Source: Pontiella agarivorans (GTDB lineage Bacteria > Verrucomicrobiota > Kiritimatiellia > Kiritimatiellales > Pontiellaceae). From it: a DNA stretch of 64,000 bases. The position numbers were made by a program, and so were the translations under genes. The notes beneath the pieces were generated by a model. The model was not told the origin of the DNA, did no database searches, and saw nothing but the letters and a program-made list of their open reading frames with translations. Below are positions 11,451 through 27,429 of this stretch, one piece after another (position 1 is the first letter of the stretch; every line of letters starts with the position of its first letter). Location of the stretch: NCBI RefSeq assembly GCF_034531395.1, contig NZ_JARVCO010000002.1:124001-188000 (forward strand). The letters run 5' to 3'.

Positions 11451-11503
11451 CTATTGTTTTTTGTAGTCAACGGGGGGAGAGAACTACAAGTCCTACTTTT
11501 TGC
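11451..11503 (+). promoter_or_regulatory. Bipartite regulatory element, copy 1 (upstream of beta-helix gene)
   Basis: CTATTGTTTTTTGTAG at 11451-11466, then 15 bases, then the AACTACAAG...TTTTTGC box at 11482-11503. The CTAC/CTAT half-sites start 33 bp apart. The box ends in TTGC, which could serve as a -35 element with TTTAAT about 18 bases on. The ATG of the regulated gene is 103 bases downstream. Confidence 0.6.
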
Positions 11504-11606
11504 CTTTGCGGAATATCCCATGCTTTAATGTGCTGACCGTAGAGAAGGGTTGAACCGGTTATGGTTCCGGATATGACCGTTCCGCGGAATTTCAAAGAGG
11601 ATAACG

Positions 11607-14600
11607 ATGAATGCACATAAATGGATGGCCAGTTTACTGGTACTCTGGCTTGCGGGAATGAATGCCGAGGCGTTTTACGATCCGTCCTGTGAAACGCATG
11701 CCGTGGTAACAAACGTGATGGACTTTGGTGCAGTTGGCGATGGGGTGGTCAATGATTCCGCCGCATTCCAGGCTGCGATTGATTCGGTCACGGCCAACGG
11801 AGGCGGGGATGTTGACGTTCCGGAGGGTACATATCTTCTGAAGGGGATTCGGCTTAAATCGAATGTTCATTTACGGGTTGATTCATCTGCGGTACTGAAC
11901 CTCGATGTTCCAACGGACGGTTCGTCGGGCGGAACCATGATAACGATTGACGGGCATCCAGACTGGCTGGAGAATTCAAGTGTTCAGGGCGTAGGCGGAA
12001 AATTCACGGTTAATTTTCCGGAAGGTTCGAAGGGCACCCGGTTTATTCAGGTCAAAAAGGCCCGCAATTTTCTGCTGTCAGATTTTCACGTAAACGGGAA
12101 TCTCTCTGCTTACAGCTCCGTGGTTTTCGGTCCCAGCGGTTTCGATGAAGCAACGCGCGGAATGCCTACGCAGGGGACCATGCGGAATGTGAGTATTTCG
12201 AATTCTGAGTATGGTTATGGTCTGATTCAGTCGCAGGCTTGCGATTCTATACTGTTCACGAACCTGCACGCTAATGGCGGGGTGGCACTCCGTATGGAAA
12301 CGGGCTGGGATAAGATGGGTAACCTGCAGTACGGGGGAGTGTTTAATGTGGTCGGCCGTAATATTTCCGCCGAAAATGCTAAGGCGGCTGTGATGATGGC
12401 CCCGGTGGGGCTGCAACAGGGGCTGGTCGATATTGATGGGGTCTATGCAACAAACTGTGCGTCCGCGGTTCAGATTTCCGCGGGGGGGCTGCGTAATTTG
12501 TATAATCCGGATATTTTTCCGGGAACGTATGCCGAGGGCTCGTCCGTTCGCAATGTGACCGCGGTTTTTGGAATGTCGGCTCAGTATAAAAAAATGCCTG
12601 ATGAGTATCCGTCGGAATTTTCAGGTCTGTTTTCAAACGTTTCCCACAGTGTCTACGGGGCGCCCATCATTGGCCCCTCCTTATCGGCCGTGAATAACAG
12701 CAATGAGCGTGTGACGATCGAGAATGTAAAAACATATGGGTTTGATTATGTGCCGCCTATACAAGGAGACGGATACGCGCAGACCGCTGAATCATTCACT
12801 GCCACAAACTATACGGCAAACATGGATGGTGATTTTTGGGCTGCAACTGCCAACCTGAATGCGGGCGGTACCAACTGGATCAGTGGGGATGGGGCGGTTG
12901 GCCGGATTGATTTGACGACTGCGGAAGCGGAGAATCATGCGCTGAATTATTGGGGATTTGCGCTGGAAGCGGGGGAGGATGCTACGATTGCTTCCGATTT
13001 CCGTTATTTTCATCAGTCCGGCGGTGATCTTTCAGGCAATCTGAACGAAGCGGCTTTCGGACTGTTGTTCAGCACGGATCCGGATCCGGCTATCGGAGCC
13101 GATGGTTACTGCCTGCTGGGCAACAAGGGCAACGGAATCGGACTGGTTGAAGAGGCTCTGAGCCTGATCGCGCATACCAACCTGAATGTGGATACCGCTT
13201 CCGGCGGTTGGAGCGACTGGTTTCGGCTCAAATGGACTATTGAGCGGGGTGATGAAAATTATCGGGGAACTCCTTCGATTTATGACGAAAGCGGAATGCT
13301 GATTTACAGTGGCTCTACCATTGATCTCGGCGTGGCAAACGGGACTGAAATCTGGGCCGGTTATACCACCGGCACAAACCGTGTCGGCGGCCGCATTTCC
13401 GACTTCAGCGGCCTGGAACAGGTTGAAGCGGATAATTTTGTTTTTGAAGTAAGCTATATCAATGAGGCTCCGATATGGCTCGATACACCAAGCCGGTTCT
13501 ACGCCACCGTCGATACGGAATATACCACCTCGTTGCGAGGAGCGGTGCTGGAGCCGAACGGGAAACTGGTTAAGTATACCAGGCTGCAGGGGCCGGATTG
13601 GTTGACGGTTGAAGCCGATGGCTGGATTACAGGAATGCCGGATATTTTTGACATTGGACCGAATATATTCGAATTGGTGGCCACGGACTATGAGGGGCTT
13701 TCTAGTACCAACACCGTGATTGTTACGGTGGCTTCATCGAGTGGTGGAATGTTCAGTGTGCCGCCGGTTGAAGATACCTATGTTCAGGGGCTTAATCCGA
13801 CCAATAACTATGGATCAAGCCGCACCATGGGGCTGCAGGATCATGCTGTAAAACAACGGATCGCTTATTTGAAATTTGATCTGTCTCAGATTCCCGGGGA
13901 TCAACTGACGAATGCTTTTCTGCGACTAAAGGTCAGCGATCCTGACCCGGCTATGCATCAAACGGTTTGGTCGGTTGCCGATGACAGCTGGCAGGAAGAC
14001 ACGGTTACCTATTCAAACCGGCCCGCTCTCGTTAGCGGTGTGTCGGGGGCTCCGGTTCCGGTTCCTGATTTTGGTTGGTGGGCCGAATTGAATGTTACCG
14101 GAGCTGTTCAGGGAGAATGGGCGGGGGATCAGACGGTTTCTTTGGCGTTGGTTGCCTCGAACGGATTTCAGACTGCATATCATTCTTCGGATGATATGCC
14201 CGGTCACCGTCCGGAATTGGTCGTGCAGACGGTTCAGACCAATAATACGGCACCGGTATTTACTGAATCGCCCATGGATGGAGGTACTGCATTGATTCAT
14301 GCGGACTATACCTTCAGCCTGTCAGATTTTGCTGTCGATGAGGATGGAGATGAGTTGAATTTCCGCATTGTCAGTGGCCCGGAATGGCTTGTTGCCCGTT
14401 CTGACGGAGTGCTGACAGGTACGCCGAATGAGAAGGATTCGGGCTGGAACCGCTGGGAGGTGCTGGCCGCTGACGGGATTAATCCGGCGGTTACCGGTGA
14501 GTTGAATATTTGGGTGGAAGAAAATGATTCAGAACTTCTTTCAATACTTAATCCGGTGGCCGATACGTACGTTCAAGGGGGAACGCGCAGTAATAATAAC

Positions 14601-15407
14601 TATGGCACTGAAAGTACGGTGAGCTGCAAATACAAGTCCAATAATGAAAACTGGACCTACGAGCCTTATCTCCGTTTTGACCTTTCAGCGGTTTCCGGGG
14701 CCTCTATAACCAATGCCACGTTACGTTTGAAAGTGCAGGCCATCGATGATGTCGCCACATCTGTACACACGGCTTATTTCGTGGCCGATGACAGCTGGGG
14801 AGAAACTAATCTGACCTGGAATACAAAGCCTTTATGGAGTACTTCGCTTGATGCCGCACCACGCCCTTCTTCCGCGGGATTATGGATTGAGCTGGATGTG
14901 ACCCAGCAGGTTTCGGCGGAATGGCTGGGTGATGGCTTGTTTTCAGTTGCGCTGATTGCATCGACCAAGGACAAAGTTGACTATTATTCCCGAGAAGCGC
15001 TCTCCGTCAGTGATCGTCCTCAGCTGGTTATTCAGGCCATTGGCTCTGAGCATTCAGCATGGAACGCCTTTATTTCGGATTATGGTCTGGGGGGATTAAA
15101 AAATAATCATTCGGACAGCGACGGCCTGGACGACTGGGGGGAATATGTGTTCGGAGGAAATCCGACCAATCCGGCGGACACCGGAACGCAACCTGTCTTT
15201 GATGCCGCTTCTTCCAATTACATTTTTTCGCTTATCGGGGATGATCATGTGGTTGCTCATGTCCTCACCAATGCCGATCTGGTTGGCGGAAACTGGGGGA
15301 CAAATGCCACGGTGAACGTGACTGCGACCAACGGAGTTCTCGGCGCTTACACGAACCGTGTGAATATGGAGACCGACGAATTGTTCATTAAACTGCTGGT
15401 GGAATAG
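11607..15407 (+). CDS. Secreted pectate-lyase-superfamily beta-helix protein with two CBM96/DNRLRE-like modules
   Basis: A 1266-residue exported protein. After the signal peptide, VTNVMDFGAVGDGVVNDSAAFQAAID is the pectate lyase 3/GH28-type N-terminal motif, and a right-handed beta-helix runs to about residue 390. A concanavalin-like segment spans about 400-610, followed by an Ig-like He_PIG-type domain (about 615-710). A first DNRLRE-like domain (about 715-870; VEDTYVQG...NNYGSS, YLKFDLS, DDSWQEDTVTYSNRP) is followed by another Ig-like domain and a second DNRLRE-like copy (about 980-1140; VADTYVQG, YLRFDLS, DDSWGETNLTWNTKP). The tail has YGLGG...DSDGLDDWGEYVFGGNP, an aspartate-rich putative calcium-binding motif shared with the next gene. 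AGAGG precedes the ATG. It probably cleaves or binds an acidic or galactan-type glycan; exact activity unknown. Confidence 0.75.
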   Translation: MNAHKWMASLLVLWLAGMNAEAFYDPSCETHAVVTNVMDFGAVGDGVVNDSAAFQAAIDSVTANGGGDVDVPEGTYLLKGIRLKSNVHLRVDSSAVLNLDVPTDGSSGGTMITIDGHPDWLENSSVQGVGGKFTVNFPEGSKGTRFIQVKKARNFLLSDFHVNGNLSAYSSVVFGPSGFDEATRGMPTQGTMRNVSISNSEYGYGLIQSQACDSILFTNLHANGGVALRMETGWDKMGNLQYGGVFNVVGRNISAENAKAAVMMAPVGLQQGLVDIDGVYATNCASAVQISAGGLRNLYNPDIFPGTYAEGSSVRNVTAVFGMSAQYKKMPDEYPSEFSGLFSNVSHSVYGAPIIGPSLSAVNNSNERVTIENVKTYGFDYVPPIQGDGYAQTAESFTATNYTANMDGDFWAATANLNAGGTNWISGDGAVGRIDLTTAEAENHALNYWGFALEAGEDATIASDFRYFHQSGGDLSGNLNEAAFGLLFSTDPDPAIGADGYCLLGNKGNGIGLVEEALSLIAHTNLNVDTASGGWSDWFRLKWTIERGDENYRGTPSIYDESGMLIYSGSTIDLGVANGTEIWAGYTTGTNRVGGRISDFSGLEQVEADNFVFEVSYINEAPIWLDTPSRFYATVDTEYTTSLRGAVLEPNGKLVKYTRLQGPDWLTVEADGWITGMPDIFDIGPNIFELVATDYEGLSSTNTVIVTVASSSGGMFSVPPVEDTYVQGLNPTNNYGSSRTMGLQDHAVKQRIAYLKFDLSQIPGDQLTNAFLRLKVSDPDPAMHQTVWSVADDSWQEDTVTYSNRPALVSGVSGAPVPVPDFGWWAELNVTGAVQGEWAGDQTVSLALVASNGFQTAYHSSDDMPGHRPELVVQTVQTNNTAPVFTESPMDGGTALIHADYTFSLSDFAVDEDGDELNFRIVSGPEWLVARSDGVLTGTPNEKDSGWNRWEVLAADGINPAVTGELNIWVEENDSELLSILNPVADTYVQGGTRSNNNYGTESTVSCKYKSNNENWTYEPYLRFDLSAVSGASITNATLRLKVQAIDDVATSVHTAYFVADDSWGETNLTWNTKPLWSTSLDAAPRPSSAGLWIELDVTQQVSAEWLGDGLFSVALIASTKDKVDYYSREALSVSDRPQLVIQAIGSEHSAWNAFISDYGLGGLKNNHSDSDGLDDWGEYVFGGNPTNPADTGTQPVFDAASSNYIFSLIGDDHVVAHVLTNADLVGGNWGTNATVNVTATNGVLGAYTNRVNMETDELFIKLLVE

Positions 15408-15707
15408 TCGCTCCATTATTCAATCGATTGTGGCGGTTGCGGCGTTTTGTGCGTTGTTGCCGACTGCATTTGAGCATCGATGGAATAGCCGATTTCATAA
15501 AGCCGGAAGAATAAATTCCGGACTCAGATTTGAGATTCGAAAAGGGGGCTACAACATGATGTAGCCGATATGGGGAAATAACTACAAGACCCATATTTTG
15601 CAATTCTGCCTGTCCTGGGTTTACATAGTATAGCTAGTAGTCAGAGGTCTGGCTGGGCCCGGTGGCGCAGTGGCAGGCAGGACGAAAAAAAATAAGGAGA
15701 AGGGATA
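15408..15707. other. 300-base spacer with hairpin and regulatory element
   Basis: It contains the hairpin CCGGAA-N7-TTCCGG (15503-15521), which lacks a T run, the regulatory element described separately at 15549, and a possible -10 region around TACATAGTATAG (15624-15635). No gene is visible. Confidence 0.5.
15549..15601 (+). promoter_or_regulatory. Bipartite regulatory element, copy 2 (upstream of LamG/Fn3 protein)
   Basis: CTACAACATGATGTAG at 15549-15564, 15 bases, then the AACTACAAGACC...ATATTTTGC box at 15580-15601. The CTACAA half-sites start 33 bp apart. The ATG lies 107 bases after the box, close to the spacing of copy 1 (104) and copies 4-5 (114, 86). Confidence 0.6.
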
Positions 15708-18700
15708 ATGAGAGGAAAAAGAGCTGTTTTTACCCTGCTGATAAGTATGGGGGTACTATCAACAACATGGTCGGCGCCATATATAAACGCCGATTTTAAT
15801 ACCGGCAGCGGTGATCTCGCAACCGTAGATGCGGACTGGTCCAAAGTGGAAAATACACCGGGAGATGCCTTTACTCTGGGGGGCGGTGTGGCAACAACGA
15901 CAGGCACTTTTCCGGAAATCACAAACGGCACACGTGCGGTTTATTTTACGGGGGCCTCGGTTGGAAATGACATAGGCCATAAATGGACGGGTTCGGTTGA
16001 TTTTTCGTTCACCAGAACTGCGGAATATGGTCCTGATACATTCGATAAACAGCTCTTTACATTGGGTGAAGGCAATACGGAAACCAATGAACTGGATATT
16101 GGTCAAAGCGATCTGGGGATACAATTGAGACTTAGAAACACTGGTGCTCTCCGGGTTGGCGTCAGGGATGCCGATGCGTGGAATAACCCGTTGCAGGTAA
16201 GTGATGCATTTATCGGTGCCACGAATAATACATCCGCCACAACCACCGATGATCTTCGCCTGACATGGATCTATCGAAAAACCGCAGTGTCCAATGTCTA
16301 CGCGTTTACGGCATCGATCATTAATCTGGATACGATGGAGACCAACAGTATGGAGAAAATCCAATATCTGAACGAATCCATCTTCTGGAATGAGGTGACG
16401 AATCCGCGTTTTCTGCTGCAGGCTGAAAATTCAAGTTATACGAATGATAACTATGTGACCACAGCGATTGATAGCTTAACTGTATCGGTGGAAAGCAATG
16501 CCCCGGCAGTTTTACAATTTGGTTCGGTTGTTGCTGCGGGGAACGATGCCGCTGTTTTTCTTTCCTGGGATGATGTAGTTGAAGCCACGGCTTACGATGT
16601 AAAGCGTTCGGATAGCATTGATGGCACGTACACGACATTGACCGGCGGAGCGGACATTACGACCAATGTTTTCTCGGATACGCAAAGCCTCGTTAACGGA
16701 AATACGTATTTCTATAAAATCACCGCAAAAGCAGGTGCGCTTTCTGCGGATTCCGATCCGGTTGAAGCGACTCCCGATCAAATCGTGGAGGTCACCGGTA
16801 CGTTTATCGATACCACCTTCACGAATAGTGCGATCTATGCGAATGGTGATCTGGCCAATCAAACCGGCTGGCGTGCAAACAGGAATTCGCGCAGTGGTGC
16901 TTTCACTGTTGATACTGCAGGAAACGGGTTTGCGACTGCCGTTGCAAGCGCCGCAAGCACAAACGAGGCTTCGGTTTACTGGAAGGACTACAGTACGAAT
17001 GCGGTTGGCGCAATCTGGAGCGGCGACTTTGATTTCAAGATCACTGCAGATTCCGTCCTTGCAGAGGAAGGCGTTATTCTCAACTTCGGTGTTACGTCGG
17101 ATGTTGAAGAAAAGGGGATCAGTCATTTAGAAAGTCACAATGCCGTGATTACCACCTGGCTGACACCGGGCGGCAACTTGCGCATTGGATTGAACGCAAG
17201 GTTTATTGGTCAGACGGATCTGATTAACGTGGCGGCGGAAGATCTCGGCTGGGATCCGGCATCCACGAATATTCCGGACTTTGAGACGGACCTTATTGAG
17301 TATGACTGGAGCATCCGCAAAACCTTGGGCGGTAATTATAACGCAGAGCTCACTGTTACCGTGGAAGGTATTTCAACGAACACGGCGACTCTTCAATATG
17401 CCAACAATGAGCCGACCGAAATGTATAATGCCGGTGTAGCCCACTTTGCGATGTCGCACCGGATCCCGGGTATGGAGCTGGTTGATATTGCTGTGGACCG
17501 TGTGACGGTGACGCATGCTGACACGAGCCCGGTTCCGGTTACTGAACCGACCATTAGCAGTGTTACCCAGGGGAACCTGGAACTTAACGTGTCCTGGGGA
17601 TCAAAAGGCGATGAAACCGGAGGATTCAATGTTTACCGTTCATCGACCGGTACAGATCCGGAAGACTTCGTGTTGTACACCAATGTAACGACGGCGGGCT
17701 TCGTGGATACGGGATTGGAAAATCTGCGGGTATATGCCTATAAGATTAAAAGTGTGTTCCCGACCGGTGAGAGTGAATTCAGTAACATGGTGGCAAACCG
17801 TGCGCTGGTTACAGCTCAGGTAGACGGCATGTTCTGGAGCGCGGCCGGCGGCAATGGCACGCTGAACTATAACAAAACCATCTCGCAGACCTATTCGGGA
17901 GTATCTTCGAATGGAATCACCTTGAAAACCGGAAACGGCTTTGAGGGATCCAAGGTGGAAGCGTCCAAAATCGATGATGGATACAATACGAGTGCTTCGC
18001 CGCTTATCTATGGATGGCTCCAGGAGGAAACAGAGATACCCGTGGCTACAACTACGTTTTGGAATAAAAACGGAAATGACCGAATCCGCTACAGGAACAA
18101 TAACGGTGGAATCAATGCGAGCCTGGACTATGTTCAGATCGACACTGCCGTCGATGCCTCTGTCGGAACGTTTATCATGTATGCAGGTACCTGGGGAGGA
18201 AACACCCGGGCTGCTATCAGGAACAACGGAACGTGGTATGCCAGTAAAACGACCAGCAACAATGATGAGCAGTCGATTGACATGGCTACAGAGACCTGGG
18301 CCGTTTTCTCCACTCCTGAAGCGGGCGATGATTATGTGGATGTGAGTGATGGTTCCTTTGCAACTGTTACGTTTGACCGGGTGGATGCTGTCGGCATCTT
18401 GCGCGGGAAAAATACGGACACCGGCAATAAATCCACAGCGTACTTTTCATTGGTTATCCAGGATCGGGCTTCGGATTTCCAGAGCGCCATGTTTGACTAT
18501 GGTCTCTATAATGAAGATGCCGCAGCCACGAATGACTATGACGGCGACGGAGTAGACAATGTGAGTGAATGGGGATTGGGCGGTGATCCTGCCGATGGAT
18601 CCAAGAGTGGTCTTCAGGTTCGTCGCACGGAAGTGGATGAAAATGGAAACTTTATCTATATCTATCCCCGACTGCCGGACACAGAGCTTCGGCCGACTTA

Positions 18701-18896
18701 CAGCATTGCCAGCGATAATAATCTGACCATTGCGCCTGGATTCGTTGAGCTGACAGAGGGGGTTGATTATACTGAAGACGGATATGGCCCGAGCTGGTCT
18801 ACGAACGGAATCGGGGCAAACTTCGATGCTGTCACCAATACCATTCCGACTGCGGGTATTCCGAGGGAGTTCTTCAAACTCATCATCACCGAGTAA
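15708..18896 (+). CDS. Large secreted protein with LamG-like and fibronectin type III domains
   Basis: A 1062-residue exported protein without a catalytic motif that I recognise. A signal peptide (to about residue 22) is followed by a jelly-roll region starting INADFNTGSGDL (about 25-255) and a first Fn3 domain (about 262-355; LSWDDVVEATAYDVKRS, NTYFYKITA). A second jelly-roll copy (about 360-600; IDTTFTNSAIY) is followed by a second Fn3 domain (about 605-695; VSWGSKGDETGGFNVYRSS, VYAYKI). A beta-rich region (about 700-920) leads to the tail DYGLYN...DYDGDGVDNVSEWGLGGDP, which matches the tail of the beta-helix gene upstream. The two-fold jelly roll plus Fn3 layout suggests an internal duplication. 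AAGGAG lies before the ATG. It is likely a surface or secreted glycan-binding protein. A perfect terminator follows. Confidence 0.7.
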   Translation: MRGKRAVFTLLISMGVLSTTWSAPYINADFNTGSGDLATVDADWSKVENTPGDAFTLGGGVATTTGTFPEITNGTRAVYFTGASVGNDIGHKWTGSVDFSFTRTAEYGPDTFDKQLFTLGEGNTETNELDIGQSDLGIQLRLRNTGALRVGVRDADAWNNPLQVSDAFIGATNNTSATTTDDLRLTWIYRKTAVSNVYAFTASIINLDTMETNSMEKIQYLNESIFWNEVTNPRFLLQAENSSYTNDNYVTTAIDSLTVSVESNAPAVLQFGSVVAAGNDAAVFLSWDDVVEATAYDVKRSDSIDGTYTTLTGGADITTNVFSDTQSLVNGNTYFYKITAKAGALSADSDPVEATPDQIVEVTGTFIDTTFTNSAIYANGDLANQTGWRANRNSRSGAFTVDTAGNGFATAVASAASTNEASVYWKDYSTNAVGAIWSGDFDFKITADSVLAEEGVILNFGVTSDVEEKGISHLESHNAVITTWLTPGGNLRIGLNARFIGQTDLINVAAEDLGWDPASTNIPDFETDLIEYDWSIRKTLGGNYNAELTVTVEGISTNTATLQYANNEPTEMYNAGVAHFAMSHRIPGMELVDIAVDRVTVTHADTSPVPVTEPTISSVTQGNLELNVSWGSKGDETGGFNVYRSSTGTDPEDFVLYTNVTTAGFVDTGLENLRVYAYKIKSVFPTGESEFSNMVANRALVTAQVDGMFWSAAGGNGTLNYNKTISQTYSGVSSNGITLKTGNGFEGSKVEASKIDDGYNTSASPLIYGWLQEETEIPVATTTFWNKNGNDRIRYRNNNGGINASLDYVQIDTAVDASVGTFIMYAGTWGGNTRAAIRNNGTWYASKTTSNNDEQSIDMATETWAVFSTPEAGDDYVDVSDGSFATVTFDRVDAVGILRGKNTDTGNKSTAYFSLVIQDRASDFQSAMFDYGLYNEDAAATNDYDGDGVDNVSEWGLGGDPADGSKSGLQVRRTEVDENGNFIYIYPRLPDTELRPTYSIASDNNLTIAPGFVELTEGVDYTEDGYGPSWSTNGIGANFDAVTNTIPTAGIPREFFKLIITE

Positions 18897-18938
18897 GCGG
18901 TTCAATTACCGCGCCCTGAATTGAGGGGTGCGGGTTCG

Positions 18939-18967
18939 AAAACCCCGTCGGTATCCGGCGGGGTTTT
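18939..18967 (+). terminator. Rho-independent terminator
   Basis: AAAACCCCGTCGG, loop TAT, CCGGCGGGGTTTT: a 13-bp stem with one G-U pair and a T run at its 3' side. It ends the 15708 gene; the flanking A run could also let it work on the other strand. Confidence 0.85.
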
Positions 18968-19052
18968 CTGTGTAAAAACGACCTTGGTTCATGGGCGGAT
19001 GAAGAACCGGAATGAAAACTGATCGACGGTGCAGCGTACGGGTTCGGGCGCA

Positions 19053-19106
19053 CTACAAAATCTACTAGCGAATGGAGTATGCAGAACTACAATACTCATA
19101 TTTTGC
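19053..19106 (+). promoter_or_regulatory. Bipartite regulatory element, copy 3 (upstream of vWA-kinase-regulator unit)
   Basis: CTACAAAATCTACTAG at 19053-19068, 16 bases, then the AACTACAATACT...ATATTTTGC box at 19085-19106. The first palindrome is the weakest of the five and the half-site distance is 34 rather than 33. This copy would put the two-component genes under the same control as the degradation genes. A T-rich -10 candidate (TTTAAT/TTAATG) follows near 19125-19131. Confidence 0.55.
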
Positions 19107-19246
19107 CTTATTTAATCCTTCGGTTTTTAATGCTCAATTGGTTTTTCCGGTGATGGGGTGGGCCCGTCAAACCGGTCGTAATGATTTTCTTTCTGGATAC
19201 CTCTGTGTGTCTGAAGCGGCACGATTGTGCAAGGAGCTGAACTGCA

Positions 19247-20563
19247 ATGTTTAAATCATCAAAAAAAGGTTTCTTTGCGAAACACGCCAAGTCCAGTGCC
19301 GCAATGATCAGTCTTGGCATTCATGCGGTTTTAATTGTCGTTGCACTCTCTTTTGTTGCGGTCACGGTGATCCAGAAAGACGAGCAGAAATTCGAGGCGA
19401 AGCCCGTTCAACGCCCTAAGATGCCGTTGAAAAAACTGCAGGTTCCGGTGAATATTAAGAAAAAGAAGATCCAAAAGCCGAAGCTGCGCAAACGCATTGT
19501 TGTGAAGCCGAAGCTGGCGAGTGTTCCGGAGATCCGGATGCCCGAAATTGCAGGGGTTAAAGGAGGGCTTGGAAATGCGGTCGGCAATGGGCTGGGTGGA
19601 ACGGGGAGCATCGGTTTTTCCATGCCCGAATTCGAATTATTCGGGGTTAAAGGCCGGGGCGAAAAAGTGTTCATTGTACTGGATGCTTCGGGGCATATGA
19701 TGACCGATGGGATCGGTGGAATTCCGGCCTATACGATTATCAAGAATGAGCTGGTACGGATTCTTGAGGAATTGAACTCGGCTGTGATTTTCAATATTGC
19801 GGTTTATGGCGGTGGGGATTATATGCTGTTTCCGGATATGGTGCCGGCAACGCCGGGCAATGTGGAAAAGGTGAAGGAGTGGCTGGCTCCGCTGAATGCC
19901 GTTTCTAAAAATATGGGGGATAGAGATTACGGCCCCAAAACGCTGGCTTCGCGCGAAAATTCGATTCGTATTGATACAAAGGTTGACCCGCTGCAGAGCG
20001 GTGTCGGCGAATGGGTGCGCCCGACCATGCAGGGTATGCAGCAACAGGCGGATGTCTTTTTTGTGCTCTCCTGTCGCTGGGGTAAACTGCGCTATAAAAC
20101 GGCTGATGCCGGAGCGTGGGATGAAAATAAACAGGCCCGGTGGAAAAAGGCCGTAACCAAGGCAAAGGCTTTGCACAAGAAGGAAAACAATGTCCGGCGA
20201 AAGAAGGGACAGCCGCCGCGGGTGGTCACCGGCGGAGACCGGGGTTTGGTTAAAGCCTATCTGCCCGGTGAAGATCTGTCTCCGAAAAATACATATCAGG
20301 ACTATACGCCGCGGGAAATTGTGGAAGCACTTTCCAATGTCTGGAAAGAGCAGCGTTCAAAAAGTCAGTTGCTTACCCGCCGACTTGGAAATATGAAAAA
20401 GAGCGATTTTTCGGTGAATGTGATTCATTTTGTAGCTGAAAATTCGGATGATGGAAAAGAAGAACGTTTTGCGAAGGTTGCCAGTCTGACCCGGGGGGAT
20501 TACCGGGAAATTAAAGGGCTGGCCGCTATTCAAAGCTATGTGAGTACTGAGCCGGAGCTTTAA
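19247..20563 (+). CDS. Membrane-anchored TonB-like/vWA-domain protein
   Basis: A 438-residue protein. A short basic N-terminus is followed by one transmembrane helix (about residues 19-41). A Lys/Pro-rich linker (about 45-105) resembles TonB or other energy-transducer proteins, and a Gly-rich segment leads to a von Willebrand A-like domain (about 135-430) starting VFIVLDASGHMM. The MIDAS motif DxSxS reads DASGH, so the last Ser is His and metal binding may be altered. It is probably anchored in the inner membrane with the vWA domain in the periplasm. It lies 67 bases upstream of the histidine kinase and very likely shares its transcript. It may be a periplasmic partner in sensing or surface assembly; its function is unknown. 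Start supported by AGGAG nine bases upstream. Confidence 0.7.
   Translation: MFKSSKKGFFAKHAKSSAAMISLGIHAVLIVVALSFVAVTVIQKDEQKFEAKPVQRPKMPLKKLQVPVNIKKKKIQKPKLRKRIVVKPKLASVPEIRMPEIAGVKGGLGNAVGNGLGGTGSIGFSMPEFELFGVKGRGEKVFIVLDASGHMMTDGIGGIPAYTIIKNELVRILEELNSAVIFNIAVYGGGDYMLFPDMVPATPGNVEKVKEWLAPLNAVSKNMGDRDYGPKTLASRENSIRIDTKVDPLQSGVGEWVRPTMQGMQQQADVFFVLSCRWGKLRYKTADAGAWDENKQARWKKAVTKAKALHKKENNVRRKKGQPPRVVTGGDRGLVKAYLPGEDLSPKNTYQDYTPREIVEALSNVWKEQRSKSQLLTRRLGNMKKSDFSVNVIHFVAENSDDGKEERFAKVASLTRGDYREIKGLAAIQSYVSTEPEL
20332..20346. repeat. TTCCAR-N3-YTGGAA palindrome
   Basis: TTCCAATGTCTGGAA inside the vWA gene, encoding part of SNVWK. Confidence 0.6.
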
Positions 20564-20630
20564 GCCTGAAGCATAAACTCCAAGTATTCTTTCGTAAACA
20601 GACCTTTGAAATGGTTACTTTTCAAGCAGG

Positions 20631-23582
20631 ATGAGAATCTGGAATTTTACGGATCATTTAAAGGCAGGAGGCATCGTTGCGGCGGTGCTGCTGGTCTGTG
20701 TATGTCATGCGGTAACGAATGAAGTATCGGAAAAGGTCCTGTTTGATATCGATTTTCAGGATCACCCTCTGAGTCGGTGGGACTCCCGATATGGGGGGGT
20801 GCCGATTATCAATTGGGGATTTGCTCATGTGGTCGAAAATCCCGCCGATCCGGGCAATCGATATCTTGAGCATCGCCCGGGGTTTACCGCCCATGGGGGG
20901 ACTGGGGATGTCAACTGGGTGGGGCAGGGGCTGAACCGTAAGATTCCCCGGCTGGAACCGGGGCAGGAGTTGCGCCTGAATTTTGATTGCCGTCTTTTTT
21001 TCAGAAATACCCGGACGGGAATGAATTTGCTCGAATGTCTGGTGACGAAGCCGGAGTCCTCGGCCAGGGATGAATTTCCGGTAAAAATCGGGCATTGGGG
21101 GGGCACTTTTTACCGGAATCGGCGTTTGGGTTTTAAATTGATGCAAACTCCGCGGATTGCCGGGCGCGCCAGTCCGGATGGTTATCTGGGTATTGCTCTG
21201 AAGCCGGTAAGCTATTGGGCGGCGGATCTGCATATCGATTTGAATGATATTGGCGTTCATCATCTGGGACGGGACGATGCGGACACAGAAAGCGACGCGC
21301 TGAATGTCACCTATACCGTGAGCCGGTATGATCGAGCTCCGTTTGTTATAAACTCGGTTATGGTTTCCAATACGGTGACCGCTGCGGTCTGGCAGGGATA
21401 TTCCACTTCTCGAAAAGCCGAGACCATGCTGGATGACGGATTGTTTATCGGCTTCGGTTCTGATTCTGATCTCTCCGGGGATGAAGGTTTCGAGATGGAT
21501 AACATCCGCTGTTCGGTCGGGAAAGGGTTCCAAACGCTGGAAAAGTTTAAAGCCCAGAAAAAGAGAGGGGCGGTCGGTCAGGAAGAAAACGTTGTTTATG
21601 AAACAGCCATTCAGACGGTTTCATCTGAAGGACCTCTTGAGCAGGAGCCGCCCTTTCTGCTTTCGATTCCCGGAAAGCTGAAAGAGATTGCTGCTCGGAA
21701 AGCTGAAATTAAATCGGAAATAAAAACGCTTCCGGTAGTGCAGGAATCGCTGCAGTTGAATGCGTACGGGTATCATGGCGGGTATCTTCCCGCTTTGGAT
21801 AAACTGCCGGAGGAACCCCGCTGGATGCTCGATATTGAGTTTCAGTCCGGAGCACGTGTGGAAGAGGTGGTGCTGGTACCGGCTATTGATCGCCGTTTTG
21901 ATGATTCCCGCGGCTATGGATTTCCGAAAAGATTCCGTGTGCTTCAGGTTTTTCACGATGGATCATCGCGGATTGCGCGGGAGTGGATGACGGAAGATTG
22001 TCCCGATCCTGGCCGCATGCCGATGGTCATAAAAATGCCGGATCCCCGCAGTAACCGTTTCCGTGTTGAGGTGTTTCGGGGCAGCCGGGAAGGGCAGAAA
22101 GAGGTTTTTGCTCTGGATGAATTTATGGGGGTGGTTCGTCAGGAAATCTTCCGCTCAGTCAATGTGGAGGCAAAAACGGTTTATGAAGCGCGGCCCTATT
22201 GGGGGAAGGGATATCTCACCGATCATAAAACCAGTCTGGGATTGCCGACGGCCCGCAGAACCAGCGGTATTGCAAGTGGTACCTCCGAAGATTTTTCGGT
22301 GGCTTTTGATCGTCCGCCCAAGAAACCTATCGTTCTTGAAATCGATCTCGGACAGAACCGTCGACTGGGGTGGGTGACACTGTTTCCTGCAAAATCGCCT
22401 GAGGGAATTCTGATTCCCGGATATGGTTTTCCCGGGAAAATCAATATGGAGATGGTTCCGGAGTTGCAAAACGGGAAACGAGGGAAAACCATTGAACTTG
22501 AAACCGCCTGGGAAGGTGGAAATCCGGGAAATAATGTGGTGCGGCTTGAGGGGCGATCTGAAGCGGGGCGCTGGATTCGATTTATTATTGATAAACTGCC
22601 CCGGCATTATGGGGCCAATACATTTGCTCTGGGGGAAATCAACGTTTATCGGAGCGGTGAAGTTTTTCCCATTCAGCAGGTCAATTTTGAAGGATTTCCG
22701 CCGGGAACTGAAGAGAATGCTGCGTTGCTGTGGGACGGGAAAGCAGGGGGACAGCCCATCATGTTTTTGTTCGACTGGCTTAAACAGTTGGAACAGAAAC
22801 ATAAATTGACCAAAGAGCTGAGCCGACTTTCCATGAATGAAAGGCTGTTTCAGGCGCGCTGGAATGGCTTCCTGCGGTCGGTGTTTATTGTGATTCTGGT
22901 GATTGTTGTTTTGGGGGCCGTTCTGGTGGCTTTAGGGGCTATTGTCCTTCGCAGGCGTCACGCAAAGCAGTTACGACAGCAGATTACCGAAGATCTGCAT
23001 GATGAAATCGGAAGCAAGGTCGGGGCCATTAATCTGTATGCGAGCCTGGTGAGAAAGACCGCATCTGATCCCCGGGCGATTGAAAGCAACCGGAGGATTG
23101 AGGTGATTGCCAAGGAAATGCAGCAGTCTTTGCGGGATGTATTATGGTTTACCAATAATAATACCGATACCCTTCGGGATGTGGTTCAGAAACTGGCCGA
23201 AATAGCGGAGGCTATGGTGCCGCCTTCGATTTTGAAACTCGATCGTTCTCCATCCTACGAAATTCCGGAGTCGACTATTTCCATTCAGGTGAAACGAAAT
23301 GTCTTGTTGATTTTCCGGGAGGCCGTGCACAATGCAACACAGCATTCCGGGGCCACAAAAATTGAGGTTCGGATTCGATGGAGTAAACCGGGGCTGGTCG
23401 TGACGGTTTGGGATAATGGAGCAGGATTTATTTTTGAGGATCTTTCCCTGAATGGAAAAGATAAGCGCCGACATTTGGGCCTCGAAAGCATGCAGCGCCG
23501 GGCGATGCAGATAAAAGGTGAATTGACGATTGAGTCCAGTCCGGGAGAAGGTACTGAACTGAAGTTGAAACTGAAAATCTAG
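20631..23582 (+). CDS. Sensor histidine kinase (HisKA_3/NarX-type) with large extracytoplasmic lectin-like region
   Basis: A 983-residue kinase. A signal-anchor (about 10-28) is followed by a long extracytoplasmic region. This begins with a jelly-roll segment (DIDFQDHPLSRWDSRYGG, about 38-290) and continues with two discoidin/F5-8C-like segments (about 380-520 and 540-700). In the latter, LDIEFQSGARVEEVVLVPA and LEIDLGQNRRLGWVTLFPA are repeated patterns. A transmembrane helix spans about 751-772. The HisKA_3 motif DLHDEIGSK gives the phosphorylated His 790, and the HATPase domain has EAVHNATQHS, DNGAGF and PGEGT. It passes phosphate to a NarL-type regulator, whose gene follows 15 bases on. 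The periplasmic fold repertoire suggests direct sensing of a glycan or its products. The start codon ATG 20631 has CAGG close by; no better one was seen. Confidence 0.88.
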   Translation: MRIWNFTDHLKAGGIVAAVLLVCVCHAVTNEVSEKVLFDIDFQDHPLSRWDSRYGGVPIINWGFAHVVENPADPGNRYLEHRPGFTAHGGTGDVNWVGQGLNRKIPRLEPGQELRLNFDCRLFFRNTRTGMNLLECLVTKPESSARDEFPVKIGHWGGTFYRNRRLGFKLMQTPRIAGRASPDGYLGIALKPVSYWAADLHIDLNDIGVHHLGRDDADTESDALNVTYTVSRYDRAPFVINSVMVSNTVTAAVWQGYSTSRKAETMLDDGLFIGFGSDSDLSGDEGFEMDNIRCSVGKGFQTLEKFKAQKKRGAVGQEENVVYETAIQTVSSEGPLEQEPPFLLSIPGKLKEIAARKAEIKSEIKTLPVVQESLQLNAYGYHGGYLPALDKLPEEPRWMLDIEFQSGARVEEVVLVPAIDRRFDDSRGYGFPKRFRVLQVFHDGSSRIAREWMTEDCPDPGRMPMVIKMPDPRSNRFRVEVFRGSREGQKEVFALDEFMGVVRQEIFRSVNVEAKTVYEARPYWGKGYLTDHKTSLGLPTARRTSGIASGTSEDFSVAFDRPPKKPIVLEIDLGQNRRLGWVTLFPAKSPEGILIPGYGFPGKINMEMVPELQNGKRGKTIELETAWEGGNPGNNVVRLEGRSEAGRWIRFIIDKLPRHYGANTFALGEINVYRSGEVFPIQQVNFEGFPPGTEENAALLWDGKAGGQPIMFLFDWLKQLEQKHKLTKELSRLSMNERLFQARWNGFLRSVFIVILVIVVLGAVLVALGAIVLRRRHAKQLRQQITEDLHDEIGSKVGAINLYASLVRKTASDPRAIESNRRIEVIAKEMQQSLRDVLWFTNNNTDTLRDVVQKLAEIAEAMVPPSILKLDRSPSYEIPESTISIQVKRNVLLIFREAVHNATQHSGATKIEVRIRWSKPGLVVTVWDNGAGFIFEDLSLNGKDKRRHLGLESMQRRAMQIKGELTIESSPGEGTELKLKLKI
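21528..21542. repeat. TTCCAR-N3-YTGGAA palindrome
   Basis: TTCCAAACGCTGGAA inside the histidine kinase gene (encodes FQTLE). The identical 15-mer recurs at 57904. Confidence 0.65.
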
Positions 23583-23597
23583 GTTGAGGATTGAACC

Positions 23598-24251
23598 ATG
23601 TCTAAAGAGAATAAAGCCGTAAGCATCTGGCTGGTGGAGGATGAAAAGCATTACCGCGAAGCGATGGTGTGCCACCTGGAGCTGGACGATCGCATCACCC
23701 GCGTTGAGAGTTTCGGTTCCTATGAAAAAGCATTGGTCAAGTTAAGCCGGACCGACCTGCCGGATCTCATTCTGCTGGATCTCCATCTGCCGGGTATCAA
23801 CGGAATTGAAGCTGCAACTGCCTTGAAGCATCATTATCCGGAATTGAATGTTCTCGTGCTGACCAGCTCATCTGACCGAAAGTCGGTTTTTGATGCCATT
23901 TGTGCCGGTGCCAATGGGTATCTGGTAAAGAGCGACTCGATCGAGGAGATTCTTCAGGGCATTCATCAGGTCTTGGATGGCGGGGTGCCGCTGAGTCGTG
24001 AAGTGGCCTCGTATGTCCTTGATACTGTCCGTTCCATGGCACCTAAAAGCTCCAAGGTTGAACTGAGCGAACGCGAAACTGAAATTTTACGTCTGTTGGC
24101 TGACGGCGAAAGTCGAAAGAAAGTGGCGCACAAGCTGCATATCGCAGTGGCCACTGTCGATTATCACCTGCGCAGCGTCTACGAAAAGCTTCAGGTGCAT
24201 TCCACCGCCGGGGCCATCGGGGAAGCTTTCCGTCAGAAACTGATTGATTAA
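23598..24251 (+). CDS. NarL/FixJ-family response regulator
   Basis: A 217-residue cytoplasmic regulator. The receiver domain (about 8-125) has the acidic pair in WLVEDEK, the phospho-acceptor Asp 61 in LLDLHLPGI, and the switch Thr/Ser in VLTSS; GYLVK gives the conserved Lys. The LuxR-type helix-turn-helix (about 152-215) starts LSERETEILRLLADGES and ends ATVDYHLRSVYEKLQV. It is the cognate partner of the kinase just upstream. Regulators of this class bind inverted-repeat half-sites of about seven bases as dimers. The CTACAA inverted repeats found upstream of five units here, including its own, are plausible targets. That assignment is inference. TGAGGA precedes the ATG. Confidence 0.92.
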   Translation: MSKENKAVSIWLVEDEKHYREAMVCHLELDDRITRVESFGSYEKALVKLSRTDLPDLILLDLHLPGINGIEAATALKHHYPELNVLVLTSSSDRKSVFDAICAGANGYLVKSDSIEEILQGIHQVLDGGVPLSREVASYVLDTVRSMAPKSSKVELSERETEILRLLADGESRKKVAHKLHIAVATVDYHLRSVYEKLQVHSTAGAIGEAFRQKLID

Positions 24252-24411
24252 CGTGTGCCGTACAGGTGACGGCATCTCGGTGGTATGCTGAGCGTGTCGA
24301 AATCAGGCGAGACTGCAGGTGTGCCGCGGTTCGTTTCTTGTTCATATCCCGTATTTAAGGGTCCGTGCCTTTTTTCGAGCGGTCTGTTTGGCCGTTGCTG
24401 ATGCTGCACAA

Positions 24412-24426
24412 TTCCAATGATTGGAA
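24412..24426. repeat. TTCCAR-N3-YTGGAA palindrome
   Basis: TTCCAATGATTGGAA in the spacer, 60 bases upstream of regulatory element copy 4. Confidence 0.65.
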
Positions 24427-24485
24427 CCGGGACGGAACACGGGCTGCGCTGCTGGTGAGGCGATGTGTTCATTTAGACAGAGGTG

Positions 24486-24538
24486 CTATAGCATTTTGTA
24501 GTGAAGGGGCTTTCACAACTGCAATTTCCATAGTTCGC
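24486..24538 (+). promoter_or_regulatory. Bipartite regulatory element, copy 4 (upstream of PEP-CTERM gene)
   Basis: CTATAGCATTTTGTAG at 24486-24501, 15 bases, then the AACTGCAATTTC...ATAGTTCGC box at 24517-24538. Half-site starts are 33 bp apart. The box differs from copy 5 at one position only. Confidence 0.6.
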
Positions 24539-24651
24539 GTTTCAATCCCTTACATGCTTTCATTTGTACCGTCCAATGTAATCGTTGGATGTCCTGTCGA
24601 GTGGTCAACACCGCACGCAGGCGATTGAAAATAAAGATAGGAGAATGAAAT

Positions 24652-25524
24652 ATGAACAAATGGATTATAGGTGCAGCCTTATTCGCCATTGGCGTAGGTG
24701 CGCAGGCGGCTGTGATCACTTCTTCTGCGGATGGAGTTCTTGATGCCGCTGCTACATGGGATGGCGTGAACAGTCCAACGAACGCAAATTCAGACACATG
24801 GAATTCTGCTGGATATGACCATAGCTGGCAGAAAAATAAGACGTATTACGGAACGTATGTTGTTCAATCCGGTACGACGGTCACGGGTTCGGGGAACTTT
24901 GACCATGTTCAGTTTGAAAATATGACTCTCGCTGGAGGAACGCTGCAGGGTGCCAGGGGGCAGGAATATACTGTGGACGCAAATCTCGCGGTTATATCGG
25001 ACTCACTGGTGACGGTTAGACGGTCAGGGATTATTAAAGGCGATGGGACTGCAACACTGACCGGTAACGGGAATTTAACGATTTTACAGGACACGGATGC
25101 AAATGATAGCGGGGATGAGTTTGCATTAGGCATGGGGATGGATATGACAGGTTATACCGGTAATATTCTCTTTACAACGGATGGCGGCGGCAGTGGTGCC
25201 GACACATTTGACCTACAAATTCTAGGGGATACATCTGCTGCTGGAACATTTGGACTTGCGCTTGAGAATCAAGCTACTGGAGATGTTTCAGTACGGTTGG
25301 ATCTGGGAACCAGTAATGACTTTACAGTGCAAGCACTTTCTTTCGGGGGCACTACCGTTGCCAACGGAACGTATACGGCTGCTGACCTGACGACCGCAGG
25401 ATTTGGTGATTGGGTTGCCGGCAGTGGCAGCACGGTTACGGTTATTCCGGAACCGGCCACGCTGGGTATGGTTGTTGCAATGGGGGTGGGAGTGCTCTTT
25501 ATTCGCCGCCGATTCATGATGTGA
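24652..25524 (+). CDS. PEP-CTERM-anchored secreted beta-rich protein
   Basis: A 290-residue protein. A signal peptide (MNKWIIGAALFAIGVGAQA) is followed by a Thr/Gly/Asn-rich, repetitive beta region like the passenger part of autotransporter or beta-helix proteins. The last residues are VIPEPATLGMVVAMGVGVLF then IRRRFMM. This is the PEP-CTERM sorting signal: Pro-Glu-Pro, a hydrophobic helix and a basic tail. In known systems exosortase EpsH/XrtA cleaves there and transfers the protein to the surface or exopolysaccharide. No exosortase is in the window. The mature protein may bind or organise glycan at the cell surface. The gene is a single unit: regulatory element upstream, two strong inverted repeats downstream. 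Confidence 0.85.
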   Translation: MNKWIIGAALFAIGVGAQAAVITSSADGVLDAAATWDGVNSPTNANSDTWNSAGYDHSWQKNKTYYGTYVVQSGTTVTGSGNFDHVQFENMTLAGGTLQGARGQEYTVDANLAVISDSLVTVRRSGIIKGDGTATLTGNGNLTILQDTDANDSGDEFALGMGMDMTGYTGNILFTTDGGGSGADTFDLQILGDTSAAGTFGLALENQATGDVSVRLDLGTSNDFTVQALSFGGTTVANGTYTAADLTTAGFGDWVAGSGSTVTVIPEPATLGMVVAMGVGVLFIRRRFMM

Positions 25525-25584
25525 GGGCGATAATGGAAGAGCGCTGTCGGATTCCGGCTGCGTTCTGTTGCTCCATTTAATTTT

Positions 25585-25644
25585 CAATGGAGATTCGGGT
25601 GACAGGTTTCCCTCCTCTTATCCTGGAATCCCGAATCTCCATTG
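25585..25644 (+). terminator. Long inverted repeat, terminator-like
   Basis: CAATGGAGATTCGGG at 25585-25599 pairs perfectly with CCCGAATCTCCATTG at 25630-25644, with a 30-base loop and TTTTGAT after it. It follows the PEP-CTERM gene. Confidence 0.55.
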
Positions 25645-25651
25645 TTTTGAT

Positions 25652-25680
25652 AAGCGCAGTGCTTCGGCACTGCGCTTTTT
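25652..25680 (+). terminator. Rho-independent terminator
   Basis: AAGCGCAGTGC, a TTCG tetraloop, GCACTGCGCTT then TTT: an 11-bp perfect stem with a stable tetraloop. Confidence 0.88.
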
Positions 25681-25788
25681 GATTGTCTGTTTCTGCTTTG
25701 CGGAGTGGTTTGTCGGTATGGTTGATTGATTCGAGCCCGCCTTCTGTGCGCGCGGTGGCAGACCCCTGCAGGGTCGATGCGATGCGGG

Positions 25789-25841
25789 CTACAAGATCTT
25801 GTAGTTTCGGTGTAATGACAACTGCAACTTCCATAGTTCGC
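25789..25841 (+). promoter_or_regulatory. Bipartite regulatory element, copy 5 (upstream of sulfatase/GH operon)
   Basis: A perfect 16-bp palindrome CTACAAGATCTTGTAG at 25789-25804, 15 bases, then the AACTGCAACTTC...ATAGTTCGC box at 25820-25841. Half-site starts are 33 bp apart. This is the best-formed copy and stands in front of the five-gene run from 25927 to 35559. Confidence 0.65.
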
Positions 25842-25926
25842 TCATCGCGCTGTGCCTGTGTTTCAATTTTATCATATGTTCCACAGGAATATCTGCAGGA
25901 ACGGTATTACAAACAGGAAATAAGAT

Positions 25927-27429
25927 ATGTCCAAATTAACCGCTTTATGTACGTTGGCGCTGACCGTCTCCGTATCGTCTTTCGGCCATGCAAAGCCGAA
26001 TATTATATTTGTTTTAGTCGATGATCTGGGGTACGCGGATGTGGGATTCAACGGGTCCACTTATTACGAAACGCCCAATATTGACCGGTTGGCCGGGGAA
26101 GGGCTGGTGCTTGAGAATTCCTACATGTATCCAACCTGTTCTCCGTCGCGCACTGCCATTGCGACCGGAAAACAATCGTTTCGCACCGGAGTCTATACGG
26201 TGCCGGTTCTGGAGCGGGGGAGTGATCAGGAAAATATTTTTTCCCGCTGGACCGTTGGCGAAGAGCATACCATGTACAGTCAGCCGCTGGCGGATTCGGG
26301 CTACAAATCCATTCATCTCGGCAAATGGCATCTTGTCGGACCGTATCCGAAGGAAGAGATGGAAGGAACCTGGCCGCGCAGTGAAAAACTGGATCAGCCG
26401 GATCCCTGGGATTATAGCTGGGCGGCCTATCACAAGTCCGAGGCCTGCGCGAAATACTATCCCCGGGGTCGCGGTTATCTGAAAAATATCGGGGGCACAT
26501 ATCGTGGCGATCCGGCATTGGAAATCGACGGCTATAAGGGCGAGACCGGCGGCTATTTTGCTCCGTTTAATAATCCGTTCATGGACCAGAAAAATCCGAA
26601 AGATAAGTGGTTGACCGATCATTTGACGACCGAGGCGATTGATTTTATGGATGAGCACAAAGACGAGCCGTTCTTTGTTAATCTGCACTATTATACCGTG
26701 CATCGCCCGATTCGCGGCCGCAGCCCGGAGCTGGTTGAAAAGTATGTGAATAAATCCGGTGATCCGGTAACCGGACAGGGCATGCAGGCCAAGCCGAAAG
26801 ATAAACTCAAGAGTGCTGAATATGCCAGCATGATTGAATCGCTCGACGACAATATCGGACGTATTGCGGATTATCTGGAACGGAATAACCTGCGTGAAAA
26901 TACATTGATTCTGTTCAGTTCGGACAACGGACAAAATGTCGGAGCCAACAAAACGCTGAGAGGTAAAAAAGGCTGGATATACGAAGGGGGGATTCGTGTG
27001 CCTACGTTTATGAACTGGCCCGGGAAAATCAAACCCCGGCGTTCCAAAACCCCGATTAGCGGACTGGATTATTTCCCGACGTTTATGGAGGTTGCCGGAA
27101 TAAAATACAACGGAGTGCTGGATGGAGATTCCATTGTCGGATTGTTCACCGGTGAACCCCGGAACTTGCAGGAGCGTCCGTTATTCTGGCATTTGGCCAG
27201 CCGGTTCCATCATGGAACCTGTTCGGTGATTCGTAAGAATAATTTCAAATTGATTCAGTTCCTCAAGGATGGATCGCTTGAGTTGTATAATTTAGAGAAA
27301 GACCCGGCGGAAACCCATAATCTGGCCGCAGAACATCCGGAAGTCGCACAGAAGCTGCTCCGGGAGCTGACCGGCTGGCGTAAACAAAACAGTATTCCGC
27401 TGCCTCCGGAATCTCCTTTGGATTACTGA
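25927..27429 (+). CDS. Secreted S1-family sulfatase with C-S-P-S-R motif
   Basis: A 500-residue exported sulfatase, first gene of a five-gene run. The signal peptide ends at about GHA and is followed by KPNIIFVLVDDLGYADVGFNG with the metal-binding Asp pair. The catalytic motif is CSPSR with Cys 71, the full canonical form. HLGKWHL gives the conserved Lys/His, and LFSSDNGQNVG the second metal pair. The C-terminal subdomain holds LDYFPTFMEVAG and ELYNLEKDPAETHNLA. It is clearly a different subfamily from the 7789/29115 pair. The next gene starts 19 bases after the stop. It is expected to desulfate the glycan attacked by the neighbouring hydrolases. Confidence 0.92.
   Translation: MSKLTALCTLALTVSVSSFGHAKPNIIFVLVDDLGYADVGFNGSTYYETPNIDRLAGEGLVLENSYMYPTCSPSRTAIATGKQSFRTGVYTVPVLERGSDQENIFSRWTVGEEHTMYSQPLADSGYKSIHLGKWHLVGPYPKEEMEGTWPRSEKLDQPDPWDYSWAAYHKSEACAKYYPRGRGYLKNIGGTYRGDPALEIDGYKGETGGYFAPFNNPFMDQKNPKDKWLTDHLTTEAIDFMDEHKDEPFFVNLHYYTVHRPIRGRSPELVEKYVNKSGDPVTGQGMQAKPKDKLKSAEYASMIESLDDNIGRIADYLERNNLRENTLILFSSDNGQNVGANKTLRGKKGWIYEGGIRVPTFMNWPGKIKPRRSKTPISGLDYFPTFMEVAGIKYNGVLDGDSIVGLFTGEPRNLQERPLFWHLASRFHHGTCSVIRKNNFKLIQFLKDGSLELYNLEKDPAETHNLAAEHPEVAQKLLRELTGWRKQNSIPLPPESPLDY

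Follow-up and report, generated by a model that had tools for sequence, protein, structure and literature searches.

The genome of Pontiella agarivorans, a marine bacterium that degrades seaweed sugars, carries ten copies of a bipartite, promoter-like element in which a distal palindrome is followed, after 15 or 16 bases, by a proximal box, and five of these lie within the window, the 64-kb stretch of DNA analysed here (G000:C2:124001-188000; the genome, G000, comprises 4.44 Mb in 12 contigs). We consider it likely, at a probability of roughly 0.75, that the elements are activator-binding parts of promoters, with the product of the response-regulator gene at 23598 occupying both sites and activating transcription from them. 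We class the system with NarL-family two-component regulons whose operators lie in tandem.

Bipartite elements precede exported sulfatase and glycan genes

All five palindrome-box pairs reported for the window by the initial annotation were found where it had placed them, with spacers of 15, 15, 16, 15 and 15 bases and a start codon 86-141 bases downstream (n = 5) (Table 1). The consensus given for the palindrome, CTAYA-N6-TGTAG, is exact in three of these copies but imperfect at 11451 and 19053. Similarly, the distance of 33 bp, originally counted between CTRCAA half-sites, does separate the CTAY half-sites, but a CTACAA start occurs in only two of the four copies with a 15-base spacer, the remaining two beginning CTATTG or CTATAG. 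The proximal box is itself a weak inverted repeat, with YRTA on its right side in most copies from the window, from Pontiella sulfatireligans F21 (G022) and from a second cluster on contig C12 of G000. The targets comprise, as had been proposed, exported sulfatase and glycan genes together with the sensor operon. Over 879 aa, target 1 shares 73% identity with a protein of the P. sulfatireligans cluster, and target 2 has a full-length homologue in that species (38%) that is also preceded by an element.

Table 1. Elements, candidate regulatory proteins and target genes (window positions unless a contig is named)
Feature	Position	Strand	Description
Element 1 distal palindrome	11451..11466	+	CTATTGTTTTTTGTAG, imperfect
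Element 1 proximal box	11482..11503	+	AACTACAAGTCCTACTTTTTGC; end abuts inferred -35
Element 1 inferred -10	11524..11529	+	TTTAAT, part of TGnT extended -10
Target 1	11607..15407	+	Exported pectate-lyase-like protein with CBM96, 1266 aa
Element 2 distal palindrome	15549..15564	+	CTACAACATGATGTAG
Element 2 proximal box	15580..15601	+	AACTACAAGACCCATATTTTGC
Element 2 inferred -10	15621..15626	+	TTACAT, without TG
Target 2	15708..18896	+	Exported protein, family not assigned, 1062 aa
Element 3 distal site	19053..19068	+	CTACAAAATCTACTAG; degenerate right arm; spacer 16
Element 3 proximal box	19085..19106	+	AACTACAATACTCATATTTTGC; precedes VWA-kinase-regulator operon
Element 3 inferred -10	19126..19131	+	TTTAAT, without TG
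Target 3, first gene	19247..20563	+	Membrane-anchored VWA-like protein; VWA_3 below curated cut-off
Sensor histidine kinase	20631..23582	+	HisKA_3/HATPase_c; large conserved N-terminal region
NarL/LuxR-type response regulator	23598..24251	+	Likely reader of the elements; recognition helix ATVDYHLRSVYEKL
Element 4 distal palindrome	24486..24501	+	CTATAGCATTTTGTAG
Element 4 proximal box	24517..24538	+	AACTGCAATTTCCATAGTTCGC
Element 4 inferred -10	24558..24563	+	TTTCAT, with TG
Target 4	24652..25524	+	PEP-CTERM protein; C-terminal similarity, no Pfam match
Element 5 distal palindrome	25789..25804	+	CTACAAGATCTTGTAG, perfect
Element 5 proximal box	25820..25841	+	AACTGCAACTTCCATAGTTCGC
Element 5 inferred -10	25862..25867	+	TTCAAT, with TG
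Target 5	25927..27429	+	Exported sulfatase
Additional copies	C2:518, C2:66520, C2:86638, C2:106519, C6:34321		C6:34321 on the minus strand

Another repeat in the window, the palindrome TTTCCA-N5-TGGAAA, occurs six times in the 64 kb (9316, 20331, 33237, 41569, 57903 and 63926) with none expected from shuffles; some copies lie inside genes, and it is also frequent at C2:770-810 kb and C10:860-900 kb.

Ten copies in the genome depart from chance

The claim of five copies is correct for the window but undercounts the genome, which holds ten in two sequence subtypes. A genome-wide search combined with an in-gene check recovered five further copies ahead of functionally related genes and none within genes. 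Three of the five precede sulfatases (two identified by Pfam, the one at C2:634 by its own sequence) and two precede pectate-lyase-like proteins; in all five a start codon follows just downstream in the correct orientation. These outside-window copies form the subtype GACTACRR...GTTTTGC, with fixed differences at box position 1 (A or G) and in the 'GT' before TTTGC.

Across the 4.44 Mb, the exact box pattern matched five times on the forward strand, at the five window sites, with no match on the reverse strand and none for a reversed-pattern control. When both parts of the element were searched together with up to three mismatches, nine matches were obtained in G000 against zero in the control, and the spacer-16 variant at 19053 was added to these as the tenth copy; at the same tolerance, the other 57 genomes gave four matches, and the reversed control matched 25 times in the full set of 58. 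The box, at the identical five sites, was also the highest-ranked motif when 14 upstream regions of the window cluster were searched de novo. The box alone with three mismatches showed no genome-wide excess (105 matches, 129 for the reversed control), so only the bipartite form or the exact box is informative. A class-wide pattern search of 346 genomes found an excess only in G000, G022 and G005, matches elsewhere looking like chance, and a kinase-alignment scan of named genomes yielded no additional element.

Element spacing differs by one helical turn between relatives

The same palindrome and box are found with a spacer of 4 in P. sulfatireligans (four copies) and in the genomes G032 and G005 (one copy each), whereas in G000 the spacer is only ever 15 or 16. 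Half-sites are therefore 22 bp apart in these three genomes as opposed to 33 bp in G000, a difference of exactly 11 bp. A search in which the distance between TGTAG and CTRCAA could take any value from 3 to 18 gave, in genomes with real copies, only 17 and 6 (spacers 15 and 4). With nothing between 22 and 33 bp, and the relatives exactly one helical turn shorter, these spacings lend independent support to the initial idea that the two sites are helically phased.

In P. sulfatireligans, the four copies precede the homologue of the gene at 15708, two PEP-CTERM genes and a sulfatase, and surround the kinase and regulator orthologues, the gene order being that of the window. Because the sulfatases are only 26% identical, the pairing of their promoters follows from position and not from clear orthology. 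The shift from 33 to 22 bp in related promoters can serve as a natural experiment on helical phasing and on geometry change across a whole regulon. The G005 copy is a lone element of the 22-bp type beside a truncated response-regulator remnant (G005:C1:2094995-2096070), ahead of alpha-L-rhamnosidase and sulfatase genes; no member of the regulator clade described below was found in G005 among the matches listed.

A NarL/LuxR-type regulator as the candidate reader

Domain matches to Response_reg (3.5e-21) and GerE (6.3e-16) identify the 23598 protein as a NarL/FixJ (LuxR-type) response regulator, whose nearest solved structures are VraR, NarL and DevR. The kinase directly upstream, encoded at 20631, has HisKA_3 (4e-06) and HATPase_c (7.1e-12) domains, as a partner kinase should. 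Several hundred of its residues are highly conserved among paralogues (AYGYHGGYLPALDELPEEPRW onward), with no Pfam match ahead of the kinase domains, and this N-terminal region is probably periplasmic.

Among 45 related regulators placed in a tree, those of the window, G002, C12, G032 and G022b formed one clade (support 99/91). The recognition-helix core [VI]DYHLR is common to all five, each has CTACAA boxes adjoining, and elements occur where a clade regulator lies, the exception being the copy beside the truncated remnant. Another close relative of the 23598 regulator, at G022 C1:3460452, has no recognisable element adjoining. No such element was found near the different-clade regulators surveyed (C2:786 kb, G022, G019 and G014), and de novo motif searches around other kinase paralogues (C2:787 kb, C10, G022 at 3.46 Mb and 1.08 Mb, and G025) returned start-codon-like or other weak motifs, with no bipartite element among the matches listed.

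The best-surviving alternative, although an unlikely one, is that another regulator reads the element, either the one at C2:102613 for the five outside-window copies or the C12 paralogue by cross-talk, leaving the 23598 protein to read part of the set only. The two subtypes split exactly between the window and the rest of the genome, two of the five outside-window copies flank a different sensor-regulator pair (C2:100.5-103.2 kb), and the C12 paralogue has the same recognition-helix core. Nevertheless, the C2:102613 regulator falls in another clade and its surveyed relatives have no such element nearby, the C12 paralogue has a box type of its own, and the 15 bp spacer, common to both subtypes and not found in any other genome searched, fits a single reader. 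We take the 23598 regulator to be the likeliest reader, as first suggested, on the strength of the co-occurrence of its clade with the elements, and predict from sequence that it controls the regulon.

The C12 paralogue, at C12:849106, appears with a kinase and with sulfatases in a sister regulon of the window's (G000:C12:837002-874818). Around its gene, seven single-box promoters of the type ACTACAANATYCGTAC are spread over 38 kb (C12:837,002-874,818), and boxes of this type were found nowhere else save for the related window boxes. A TA-rich hexamer follows 19-21 bases further on in 7/7, and the upstream palindrome is absent from the five of the seven that were scanned. The sulfatases at window positions 29115-30677 and at G000:C12:876495-878036 are 78% identical over 517 aa, which suggests that duplication or exchange between the two clusters was recent. 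A transposase-like ORF with an integrase-type C-terminus (G000:C12:845342-846205) lies immediately upstream of the C12 kinase gene.

Three geometries can be distinguished: sites three turns apart (G000), sites two turns apart (P. sulfatireligans, G005 and G032) and a single site (the C12 paralogue). The unusual feature is a single geometry throughout each regulon, one turn different between relatives. We tentatively propose, at a little below even odds, that all three belong to one regulator clade, with the geometry fixed for each regulon, and that corresponding promoters shifted their spacing together by one turn, so that operator geometry would evolve in whole-turn steps set by the regulator.

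Promoter layout and proposed activation

When the 16 collected copies from four genomes were aligned on the box, TGnT started 17 or 18 bases past it in 14 of the 16, compared with a mean of 0.7 at other offsets. We interpret this motif as an extended -10; its hexamers include TTTAAT, TTCAAT, TCCAAT and TCTAAT. A conserved extended -10 at a fixed offset marks the copies as promoters with the box set against the -35, in agreement with the earlier proposal that the box ends at the -35: a weak TTYGC is abutted by the box, and the extended -10 lies downstream. Relative to the inferred start, and with an uncertainty of one or two bases, the layout places TTYGC at -35, the CTRCAA half-site at ~-51 to -46 and the centre of the 16-bp site at the box at ~-43.5, the palindrome being centred at ~-76.5 with the 15 bp spacer and at ~-65.5 with the 4 bp spacer.

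In the mechanism that we favour, the 23598 regulator would be phosphorylated with the 20631 sensor kinase as its partner and would then bind as a dimer to the distal palindrome (the strong site, ~-76.5), a second, weaker dimer occupying the proximal box (~-43.5) beside the poor -35. Genes for exported sulfatases and for pectate-lyase-like and PEP-CTERM proteins would be activated, the sensor operon would also be a target and hence autoregulated, and the signal would presumably be a glycan product. Binding, activation, cooperativity, autoregulation and the nature of the signal are all what we infer from this arrangement.

Some NarL-family members repress, and a box that abuts or overlaps the -35 could allow the regulator to block RNA polymerase until a signal arrives; we regard such repression as improbable, given that the weak -35, the strong site upstream and the extended -10 fit an activator and that both close precedents, NarL at ogt and BvgA at fha, activate. 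It is highly improbable that the box and -10 form the promoter of an alternative sigma factor, with the palindrome serving a separate regulator. That reading would account for the conservation of both box and -10-like motif at a fixed distance, but the conserved CTRCAA at ~-51 to -46 lies too far upstream to be a -35 and no conserved box sits at -35 itself, TGnT points to a housekeeping-type sigma factor, and the half-site is common to box and palindrome.

Mean pairwise identity between copies is 0.86 in the palindrome arms and 0.83 at box positions 1-8, but falls to 0.41 in the spacer, 0.29 downstream and 0.25 over the 40 bases upstream; because arms and box are conserved while flanks and spacer are unrelated, the copies are not recently copied DNA. 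It is accordingly scarcely credible that they are dispersed repeats or functionless remnants of duplicated promoters, even though paralogous sulfatase clusters imply gene duplication and two G022 copies have longer common flanks, when every copy lies upstream of a gene in the correct orientation and species differ in spacing by one helical turn.

Comparison with known systems

In P. agarivorans, histidine kinases and response regulators have been described close to genes for sulfatases and glycoside hydrolases, with a suggested role in substrate sensing, in passages of PMC10880615 that name no operator, promoter or regulon. Literature searches found no papers on a Pontiella promoter or a Kiritimatiellota motif, and no described operator or regulon in the host phylum. 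Genomes of this phylum are rich in sulfatases, and linking a motif to a particular sensor-regulator pair makes regulons and the glycans they sense predictable from sequence.

The statement in the initial annotation that no motif like this had been described holds for the sequence only: promoters served by NarL (ogt) and BvgA (fha) are close precedents for the architecture. The NarL operator consensus is TACYYMT-N2-AKRRGTA, that is, TAC-N10-GTA in a 7-2-7 arrangement. The palindromes described here differ in being TAY-N8-GTA (TAC-N8-GTA in place of TAC-N10-GTA), and only the total length of 16 agrees. At the Escherichia coli ogt promoter, NarL activates from two sites separated by 33 bp, one at -44.5 and the other at -77.5, and is also able to act from -67.5 (PMC7419079). 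Both systems have a NarL-family response regulator and a tandem pair of inverted-repeat sites of which one lies against the -35, here at an inferred -43.5 and -76.5, with a spacer of 15/16 and the box ending ~19-20 bases before the -10. Unlike ogt, the present system has a degenerate proximal box and is predicted to serve sulfatases rather than the nitrate response. The seven C12 single-box promoters resemble yeaR-yoaG, where one site lies just upstream of the -35.

At Bordetella fha, BvgA occupies one face of the DNA as dimers repeated at 22-bp intervals, with a strong inverted heptad furthest upstream and the last site against the -35 (PMC7250471). This NarL-family system resembles ours in the layout of the inverted heptad (TAAGAAATTTCCTA, 7-0-7, compared with the 14-bp core TACAAGATCTTGTA here), in its weaker downstream sites, the last of them against the -35, and in the 22 bp seen in G022, G005 and G032, whose six copies are the only ones predicted to have a BvgA-like geometry. 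BvgA differs in using three or more dimers rather than two sites, in its unrelated sequence and target genes, and from G000 in the 33 bp found there. Because NarL at ogt and BvgA at fha match the geometry, the architecture is already known; what is new is the operator sequence, the regulon, the host phylum and the one-turn shift in spacing between species.
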